NCBI GenBank assembly: GCA_001829455.1
Contig: MIBH01000041.1
Location: 1-35,961, forward strand
DNA: 35,961 nucleotides
Direction of reading: 5' to 3'
From: Spirochaetes bacterium RBG_13_51_14
GTDB lineage: Bacteria; Spirochaetota; UBA4802; UBA5550
Shown: positions 1,064-32,143 of the stretch, piece by piece
How the letters are laid out: the number at the start of each line of letters is the position of its first letter
Numbering within the stretch: position 1 is the stretch's first letter
Program-made: the position numbers and the translations under genes
Notes under the pieces: generated by a model
What the model saw: the letters and a program-made list of their open reading frames with translations, nothing else
Databases searched by the model: none
Told to the model about the DNA's origin: nothing

Positions 1064-1963
1064 ATGGGAAATAAAAAATATATTCTTATCACGTCAGCTT
1101 ATAACGAAGAAAAAAATATCGAGAAAACAATCCAATCCGTTATTGTTCAGTCGATACTTCCTGCTGAATGGATAATAGTTAGTGACGGTTCCACTGACAA
1201 AACTAATAAAATAATCCAATCATATCAAAAAAAATACAAATTTATTAATTTTATACGAATGCCTGCAGGAAATACGCATAGCTTTGCCTCAAAGGTTTTT
1301 GCTCTACAAGCCGGCTTTGAATCACTAAAAAATAAATACTATGATTTTATCGGAATTCTTGATGCAGATGTTTCTTTTGAAAAAAATTATTTTAAAGAAA
1401 TAATTACTCGATTTGAAAATGATGAAAATCTAGGTGTCGCAGGTGGAAACATAATTGAATATTCCAATGGTGTCTACATGAAGCGTATTAAAACGCTTAA
1501 TAGCGTTGCTGGCGCTGTTCAATTATTCAGAAAAGAATGCTTTGACGACACCATTGGTTTTCAACCGTTTGAATATGGCGGAGAAGATGCTGTGGTAGAA
1601 ATATCAGCCCGAATGAAGGGCTGGGCGGTCAAGACGTTTCCAGAAATAGAAGTTATCCATCATGGATTTGTCGGAGGAAAAAATCTCTTAAGAACCAGAT
1701 ATAGACGCGGAATACGATTTTTTTTATTGGGATATCATCCGGTTTTTAATATTGTGCGGTGCATATTCAGAATGAGAGAACGGCCAATCCTGATCGGCAG
1801 TTTTGTGGAACTTATTGGCTTCTTTTATGCATACATGAAATATAAAAAAAGCAAATTGCCGGTTGAAGTAGTGTGTTATTTACGGAATGAACAAATACAA
1901 AGATTGAAACACTTGCTAAAATTTTATCACTTTTCAAACATCAAAGATCAGATATCTTATTAA
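1064..1963 (+). CDS. Family 2 glycosyltransferase
   Basis: The 299-residue protein has a GT-A fold of the GT2 type: N-terminal TSAYNEEKNI, DGSTD at residues 41-45, the metal-binding-type DAD at 100-102, and a GGED segment near 172-175 where GT2 enzymes carry the acceptor-side catalytic acid. A weakly hydrophobic stretch (LIGSFVELIGFFYAYM) near the C-terminus may touch the membrane. It probably adds a sugar to a lipid-linked polysaccharide intermediate started by the upstream phosphotransferase. Donor and acceptor are unknown. No clear Shine-Dalgarno sequence precedes the ATG. Base composition is AT-rich like the next three genes and unlike the rest of the window. Confidence 0.9.
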   Translation: MGNKKYILITSAYNEEKNIEKTIQSVIVQSILPAEWIIVSDGSTDKTNKIIQSYQKKYKFINFIRMPAGNTHSFASKVFALQAGFESLKNKYYDFIGILDADVSFEKNYFKEIITRFENDENLGVAGGNIIEYSNGVYMKRIKTLNSVAGAVQLFRKECFDDTIGFQPFEYGGEDAVVEISARMKGWAVKTFPEIEVIHHGFVGGKNLLRTRYRRGIRFFLLGYHPVFNIVRCIFRMRERPILIGSFVELIGFFYAYMKYKKSKLPVEVVCYLRNEQIQRLKHLLKFYHFSNIKDQISY

Positions 1964-2032
1964 TTTTATTTAACTTTATACAAGTCTCTTCCATAAGGGT
2001 GAGTTACAACATCCATGTGGTTTTGGAAAGGC

Positions 2033-2178
2033 GGCTTTCGGAACCAAAGCTCCCGAAAGCCTTCAGCACCAAGGTATTGGAAATTGGTGCTGAAGGGTGG
2101 TATCCCGATACCTACTAAAAATTAAAGGAATCGGGATACCGCTTAGAGTGTATTCCATGTTATGGGATGCACTCTAAG
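2033..2178 (+). other. Four tandem stem-loops in an intergenic region (possible structured RNA)
   Basis: The 415 bp between the glycosyltransferase and the methyltransferase contain four consecutive inverted repeats with almost no spacing. Stem 1: 2033-2041 with 2053-2061 (9 bp, 11-nt loop). Stem 2: 2060-2072 with 2084-2096 (13 bp perfect, 11-nt loop). Stem 3: 2099-2109 with 2130-2140 (11 bp, 20-nt loop). Stem 4: 2142-2158 with 2162-2178 (17 pairs, 3-nt loop). The two imperfect pairs in stem 4 are T/G, which are G-U wobbles in a plus-strand transcript but A-C mismatches on the other strand, so a plus-strand RNA is favoured. No T-tract follows stem 4, so it is not a classical terminator. No known RNA family was recognised. 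I see no gene in the remaining bases of this gap. Confidence 0.6.
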
Positions 2179-2378: not shown

Positions 2379-3032
2379 ATGAATATGAAAAAAAACCAAA
2401 ATGACAGGTATTATGATTATACTCGAACCGAAATACTTCCATTATTACCGGAAAAAATTGATAGAGTTCTTGAAATTGGATGTGCCACTGGAAATACACT
2501 TATGTGGTTAAAGTCGTTAAAGGAATGCAAATGGGTGGGAGGTGTCGAACTTAATTATGAGACAGCACAGATTGCAAAAAATCGAGTTGATGCTTGCTAT
2601 GTGGGTGATATTGAATCAATAGATCTTCCAATTGCAAGTAAATCATTAGATCTTATTCTATGTCTTGATGTTTTAGAACACCTTGAAAATCCATGGCAAG
2701 CAGTGAAGCGTTTGCACGATTTTTTAAAGCCAGATGGCGTAATTATTTCAAGCATACCAAATGTATTACATTATTCTGTTTTGTGCCCATTAATTTTCAG
2801 AGGTGAATTTAATTACGCAGAGGCTGGTATACTAGATAAAACTCATCTGAGATTTTTTGAAAAGAAATCATCACTTGCATTAATGGAAAATTCAGGTTTA
2901 AAAGTCGATGCAATTCAAGCGAGGGTACGAGGGAACGATGTAATAAAAATATTTGTATTAAAGTTATTGCCATATTTTATTAAAAAATTTATTATATATC
3001 AATATATTATAAGAGCAAGAAGAATCGAATAG
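2379..3032 (+). CDS. Class I SAM-dependent methyltransferase
   Basis: The 217-residue protein has the class I fold: motif I LEIGCATGN at residues 31-39, an acidic residue ending strand 2 (GGVELN, 54-59), GD at 76-77, and the DLILCLDVLEHL motif at 91-102 typical of Methyltransf_11/23. The C-terminus is basic and hydrophobic (LKLLPYFIKKFIIYQYIIRARR), perhaps a membrane-contact helix. Enzymes of this sort next to glycosyltransferases often methylate sugars or lipid-linked intermediates, which is inference here. The gene is AT-rich and stands alone, with 415 bp upstream and about 220 bp downstream that hold no further gene. Confidence 0.88.
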   Translation: MNMKKNQNDRYYDYTRTEILPLLPEKIDRVLEIGCATGNTLMWLKSLKECKWVGGVELNYETAQIAKNRVDACYVGDIESIDLPIASKSLDLILCLDVLEHLENPWQAVKRLHDFLKPDGVIISSIPNVLHYSVLCPLIFRGEFNYAEAGILDKTHLRFFEKKSSLALMENSGLKVDAIQARVRGNDVIKIFVLKLLPYFIKKFIIYQYIIRARRIE

Positions 3033-4418: not shown

Positions 4419-4519
4419 TAGACTTGTTGCCAAACTCAATAATCAGTGATTTTTGCCCCCGCCGCCGGAGGCGGCGGGGGCAAAAATGAATAATTATGAG
4501 TAGTTATGCAACAAGTCTA
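4419..4519 (+). repeat. Palindromic dispersed element, copy A
   Basis: This is the best-preserved of four related elements. Terminal inverted repeats of 12 bp are perfect (TAGACTTGTTGC at 4419-4430, GCAACAAGTCTA at 4508-4519). The centre is an 18-bp perfect GC-rich stem (4449-4466 with 4470-4487) with loop GGA, set in an AT-rich body. TA is present at both ends, but other copies do not show a consistent target duplication. It lies between two convergent genes and its right end supplies the stop codon of the minus-strand gene. It carries no reading frame of its own and resembles a MITE or REPIN-like element. The transposase, if any, is not in this window. Confidence 0.85.
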
Positions 4520-20581: not shown

Positions 20582-20680
20582 AGACTTGTTGCTAAACTAA
20601 CATAATAATGAAATATTTGTCCCCGCCGCCTGCGGCGGCGGGGACAAATTCCAATATTTATTTAGGCATCCAACAAGTCT
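20582..20680 (+). repeat. Palindromic dispersed element, copy B
   Basis: Terminal repeats AGACTTGTTG (20582-20591) and CAACAAGTCT (20671-20680) are perfect over 10 bp. The central stem is 16 bp perfect (20615-20630 with 20634-20649) with loop TGC. Compared with copy A, one C-G pair has become T-A and one T-A pair has become A-T, so pairing is retained. It lies 50 bp upstream of the epimerase start codon, in the same orientation as the other copies. Confidence 0.85.
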
Positions 20681-31863: not shown

Positions 31864-32143
31864 ATGCATATTTATCCTGTCAATGTTAATTTGGCGTCAT
31901 GCGGCGCTCTCCCATAAACAGCGCCATGAGACATGTGATAAAATCGCCTTCCATCATTACTCCGCCCCCACTAAAACAGGTGCCGGGCATGCGCAATTGA
32001 TGAATTTTTTTACACATGTCTGATAATAATTGACTTGTTCCTCAACTGAAATAATATTTAATTATGTGCCCCCGCCGCCGCTGGCGGCGGGGGCAATAGT
32101 CAATTTTTATTGAGATCTGCAACACGTCTAATAATCATTTTCC
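31864..32143. other. Intergenic region between divergent genes, carrying repeat copy C
   Basis: This AT-rich stretch of about 280 bp between the membrane protein gene and the purC leader holds repeat element C and no gene that I can support. Confidence 0.4.
32032..32129 (+). repeat. Palindromic dispersed element, copy C
   Basis: Left end GACTTGTTCC and right end GCAACACGTCT are imperfect versions of the family termini. The central stem is 13 bp perfect (32067-32079 with 32083-32095) with loop GCT. The sequence right of the element continues TAATAAT as in copy B. It lies about 15 bp upstream of a promoter for purC. Confidence 0.8.

Follow-up and report, generated by a model that had tools for sequence, protein, structure and literature searches.

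A worn copy of a probable miniature transposable element built of five DNA hairpins in a Spirochaetes genome

Bacterial MITEs such as Correia/NEMIS, ERIC, RUP, YPAL and bcr1 are, in the portions of PMC2229807 and PMC3733652 that describe them, short, non-coding, dispersed and strongly folded sequences with TA at their ends. The element reported here resembles those descriptions in being shorter than 200 bp and non-coding, with matching ends that contain TA, intergenic dispersal, strong folding and empty sites. It differs from them in consisting of five separate palindromes in a fixed order, with stems that vary widely between lineages while their pairing is kept, and in occurring in several families of one phylum. 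Streptococcus BOX elements, compared by description from part of PMC3049150, are likewise modular, composite, dispersed and folded, with modules lost or added, but the modules of the present element are single hairpins and not tandem boxB repeats. GTAG or CGTC tags mark REP elements, and REP/BIME sequences with RAYT are short intergenic palindromes in genomes with Y1 transposases, according to the relevant part of PMC3733652; our element shares these last features, but has no such tag at its hairpin foot, comprises five unlike hairpins per unit and does not lie beside the Y1 genes inspected (0 of 10 loci). The intergenic structure motifs of Borrelia plasmids are presented, in part of PMC2674063, as RNA motifs on plasmids that are linked to protein genes, and by that description the element is like them in being a repeat with compensatory stem changes. 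No description of the element was found in the open literature searched.

The locus lies in a window of 35,961 nucleotides, the whole stretch of DNA that was analysed, on contig MIBH01000041.1 of Spirochaetes bacterium RBG_13_51_14. An earlier note, made from the sequence alone, had described four adjoining stem-loops of 9, 13, 11 and 17 bp at 2033-2178, and they were located exactly there (hairpins A to D). The element itself begins upstream of that region: what is left of a fifth hairpin marks its start at 1994. The features are as follows.

1064-1963, plus strand: upstream neighbour, outside the element, a glycosyltransferase of family 2 (Pfam PF00535)
1994-2177, plus strand: whole element copy in L to D orientation (covariance models R1, 124 bits, and R2, 81 bits, this copy being included in the training alignments of both)
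1994-2031, plus strand: worn left end, where comparison with intact own-genome copies shows remnants of hairpin L, with ACATCCATGT kept, and of the end repeat, which reads TTAGAGTGCGTCCC in the intact copies
2033-2061, plus strand: hairpin A, 9 bp stem 2033-2041/2053-2061, from the fold and aligned with A of other copies
2060-2096, plus strand: hairpin B, 13 bp stem 2060-2072/2084-2096, with a different stem sequence but the pairing kept in other copies
2099-2140, plus strand: hairpin C, 11 bp stem 2099-2109/2130-2140, extending inward past a mismatch (alignment A1)
2142-2178, plus strand: hairpin D, the right end, 2142-2158/2162-2178, 17 positions of which 15 are Watson-Crick and two mismatched, from a stem search
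2379-3032, plus strand: downstream neighbour, outside the element, a SAM methyltransferase (Pfam PF13489)

The span 1994-2177 is the sole covariance-model match in the window. Hairpin C occupies the position of the short hairpin P (GCGGTACATCCTGTACCGC) of other copies and is common to the copy on contig C11. We regard this feature as very probably a degraded copy of a MITE-like transposable element, miniature and protein-free, of about 160 bp when intact, with hairpins L-A-B-P-D and matching ends, because copies are dispersed, recent families are near-identical, an orthologous site is empty, the hairpin order is fixed and covariation is extreme. Among the origins offered in the earlier note, that of a decayed element therefore comes closest, the left hairpin being broken, and the window copy, with this end broken, has probably lost its mobility.

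The plus strand of 2013-2198 folds at -83.3 kcal/mol, compared with -45.5 +/- 3.8 for dinucleotide shuffles (z -9.85), and the minus strand gives a z of -9.37; on each strand none of 200 shuffles was as good, which bears out the claim of more pairing than chance would provide. By eye, the right end of the element lacks the GTT core that is a feature of integron attC sites.

Intact copies measure about 157-167 bp, within the 70-300 bp of bacterial MITEs, and carry the five hairpins in the fixed order L, A, B, P, D between matching ends. The end repeat leads into L, A, B, P and D, and the outer arm of D ends in GGGATGCACTCTAA. The 5' arm of D is a direct repeat of the left end and its 3' arm an inverted repeat of it. 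Terminal inverted repeats are short (10-13 bp) and take the form AGAGTGCRTCCC...GGGAYGCACTCT in type I and CAGTTTSCTG ends in type II. Uncurated ORFs of at least 70 aa overlap 8 of 40 fetched loci and, in another set, 10 of 32, and this was counted against a protein-free element.

When 2013-2198 was searched for in the organism's own genome, similar sequence turned up at 32 places, many of which hold a single hairpin, and solo D-like hairpins occur elsewhere in this genome. As the left end and the D 5' arm are direct repeats, such solo hairpins could arise by deletion, through recombination between the two. R1, a covariance model built from eight own-genome copies, found 11 distinct places in that genome at E<1e-9 (eight of them the training copies) and matched six of 59 genomes, the own genome included, at E<=0.01. 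At E<=1e-4, R2 matched 6 of the 46 genomes of the order, with 26 places in G004 and 23 in G003, both of the same genus, while G001 and G005 had no clear full copy by the R2 search. Near-identical copies of 157-160 bp are numerous in G003 and G004 and share the five hairpins, with different stems, and unconstrained folding of the relatives' copies gave the same hairpin order. Copies in G004 lie on average 3.4% from their consensus, seven copies in G164 are 90-97% identical, and near-identical copies sit between different genes.

For nine insertion sites the two flanks were joined, leaving out the element, and used as queries against six genus genomes; four of the nine hit across the join in another species. 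The cleanest case is contig C76 of G002, filled as ACCATTTAGAGTGC...GCATTTTAAGG, compared with the empty site ACCATTAAGG in G004 at 90% identity, a comparison that requires a one-base indel; G003 and G001 are likewise without the element at this site. The own-genome copy on contig C35 is absent from G004 and G002 (67-69% identity), and the other two hits are too diverged to fix a boundary. The copies are mobile, since a sister genome lacks one of them at its orthologous site. An open scan of the flanks at all offsets showed no clear target duplication. When the four bases outside the end cores were compared in type II and G164 copies, left and right agreed in 21 of 31 and disagreed in 10; 109 of 124 bases matched against 98.2 expected, with none of 20,000 shuffles as high, in a test made after the open scan at chosen boundaries and leaving out the outer bases of the D 5' arm, whose computed values are unreliable. 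Agreeing flanks are mostly CTAA, and the informative pairs are CTAT/CTAT (twice), CTAG/CTAG and TTAG/TTAG.

Transposase scans covering Pfam PF13358, PF01609, PF00665 and PF01797 found Y1 transposases in all six genus genomes (G000-G005) and rve in four of the six, rve being absent from the own genome. The genus seems poor in the DDE families searched, with DDE_3 in none of the six and DDE_Tnp_1 absent from G004. An alternative origin as REP/BIME-like palindromes, moved by Y1 (HUH) tyrosine transposases acting on single-stranded hairpins, would agree with the ubiquity of Y1_Tnp genes where the searched DDE families are scarce, with hairpins at both ends and with the lack of a long target duplication in the open scan. 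We nevertheless consider it unlikely. The ends are TTAG/CTAA and not the GTAG or CGTC tags reported for REPs in part of PMC3733652, no element copy was present at the ten Y1 loci tested among 26 Y1 matches listed, and G001 and G005 lack a clear full copy even though Y1 genes are present in both. Further, the left-right correlation of the four end bases is unexpected if the target is not duplicated.

Several Y1 transposase genes of about 116-160 aa (L189, L190, L191, L194 and L195) are flanked by long palindromes of their own. These are mostly centred on TTAA (e.g. TAGGGTGGGGTTTAAACCCCACCCTA) and may resemble the TIRtrons outlined in part of PMC3733652.

Searching the rve and DDE_Tnp_1 loci with R2 revealed no element copy, and a search for the end pattern in G000 and G004 returned, among the matches listed, only copies and internal-deletion derivatives, with no autonomous partner sharing the same ends. 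G004, G003 and G164, with their many near-identical copies, are ready material for finding the enzyme. The best reading is that the element represents a new family of miniature transposable elements that are non-autonomous and depend on a putative enzyme for their movement. This enzyme, supplied in trans, would recognise the ends, the hairpin fold and the loops in DNA that is probably single-stranded or extruded, and would insert the element into CTAA-like sites, of which 4 bp would probably be duplicated. Inserted copies would then decay, accumulating single mismatches without a G-U bias, and effects on neighbouring transcripts, if any, would be a by-product.

Over 296 genomes of the phylum, a count that includes the own genome and the training genomes, R2 matched 32 at E<=1e-5 and 16, in six families, at E<=1e-10. 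On folding the 32 fetched matches, the five-hairpin plan was clear in the stronger ones and partial in family f24. R2 gave no match at E<=0.1 on 31 other loci used as a control. Genomes of family f24 (e.g. L299, L300 and L309) show partial arrays, with L, A and P-like hairpins bearing CATCC loops; these matches were left out of the count of members, the model scores being weak (E 1e-5 to 2e-10) and the arrays partial. One matching palindrome in Pseudanabaena, from a scan of named genomes, was judged to be chance.

The covariance search in relatives proposed in the earlier note was strongly positive, with stems conserved through changing sequence. When 17 copies were aligned by sequence, both partners had changed in 36 of 57 pairs. 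Of the cells in this alignment 81.9% were paired, a level that none of 500 shuffles reached and that fell to at most 52.3% when partners were slid. A model-based alignment of 29 phylum matches, which is fitted to the model and hence leans to structure, showed change in both partners at 55 of 57 pairs, with 88.4% of cells paired against at most 47.8% when slid; this count includes the opposite-strand match L163, which the mismatch and loop counts on 28 copies omit. Ten lineage pairs compared were 37-62% identical. The loops are conserved as well, TCC occurring in loop L of 26 of 28 copies and loop P of 24 of 28 (0.31 in random 14-mers of the same elements), and the tip of A is CAAAG or CTAAG in 16 of 28.

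Such pairing might also arise neutrally, if template switching during replication within palindromes copied one arm onto the other without selection. Copies about 3-4% apart already show seven double Watson-Crick cells against 51 single changes, some compensatory double changes are common to several copies, and the outcome has no strand bias, all of which this process would produce. It is nonetheless an unlikely account of the whole, as it leaves the fixed order and spacing of the five hairpins unexplained, together with the conserved loops, in lineages only 37-62% identical.

The usual view is that a miniature element is recognised by the sequence of its ends. The retention of the five-hairpin plan and the loop motifs over such diverged lineages suggests recognition by DNA structure. 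As a tentative extension of the transposable-element reading, with the odds against it, there may be a phylum-wide lineage of miniature elements recognised by fold, in which the enzyme responds to the five DNA hairpins in their order and to their TCC-type loops, leaving the stems free to be rewritten as long as they stay paired.

The very strong covariation, the conserved loops L and P and the conserved tip of A could instead reflect a structured RNA, either a small RNA or one borne on mRNA, that was dispersed by chance and whose stems are kept for folding of the transcript. If a transcript must fold, G-U should outnumber A-C among the imperfect pairs in the orientation of the element. Single changes within G004 and G003 copies came to 15 G-U and 15 A-C, mismatches in the own genome to 48 and 50, and those in 28 diverse copies to 76 and 68. 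Selection at the RNA level in an active lineage would fit the G004 rows, where the alignment count alone is 43 G-U against 10 A-C, and some recent copies among the 28 in which G-U exceeds A-C. Two positions, a consensus U-G pair and hairpin P, account for much of the G004 excess, however, which is partly an alignment effect: P is misplaced, lying one base off in the G004 rows of alignment A3 and so having lower pairing there; single within-copy changes in G004 number 11 G-U and 9 A-C. As the earlier note had it, both mismatched positions of D form G-U pairs when read on the plus strand, but they carry little strand information, G-U and A-C being about equal in the family.

Nor is there a preferred orientation to genes: at 58 loci, scored with uncurated ORFs, 12 copies lay in the same orientation as co-directional neighbours, 18 in the opposite one, 16 between divergent and 10 between convergent genes, and two at edges. 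The near equality of G-U and A-C together with the mixed gene orientation suggests that the palindromes are maintained at the level of DNA and not for the folding of a transcript. Rfam gave no family at gathering score in the window and, on six loci, two matches that were both far below the cut-off. With near-identical copies lying between different genes as well, a structured RNA is improbable. Neither the proposal of a structured small RNA nor that of a decoy or RNA sponge draws support from these results, given the lack of an Rfam match and of a general G-U preference, and copies in both orientations to genes, although the element may be transcribed. With stems that are part of a mobile DNA element, covariation alone is no proof of an RNA, and we offer this as a warning that the usual hallmark of functional RNA, when strong, can stem from mobile DNA. 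The strong hairpins between co-directional genes might suggest a terminator or attenuator array serving the polysaccharide locus. This is highly improbable, since the terminator scan found none at stems A-D, its sole hit being a weak 5 bp stem at 1997-2014, and copies elsewhere adjoin other genes; the earlier note, too, had seen no fit to a known terminator.

Variants and other repeats were also seen. A longer form in G003 and G004 (L158, L159, L168, L171 and L199) has extra hairpins between L and A, and one of these (GGACATCCTGTCC) has the same CATCC loop. In two copies of about 190 bp in G170 (L297 and L298), hairpin A is enlarged and branched, with further hairpins nested inside. A further palindrome, CCCCGCCGCC/GGCGGCGGGG around a loop of three bases, is also dispersed; it occurs in the window at 4439-4497, 20615-20649 and 32067-32095 and at 636-674 of locus L021, and one copy directly adjoins the element copy on contig C11. 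Near some of the element's solo hairpins (L026, L075 and L085) there is a repeat of yet another type, CCCTCCC...GATGGGAGGGG.
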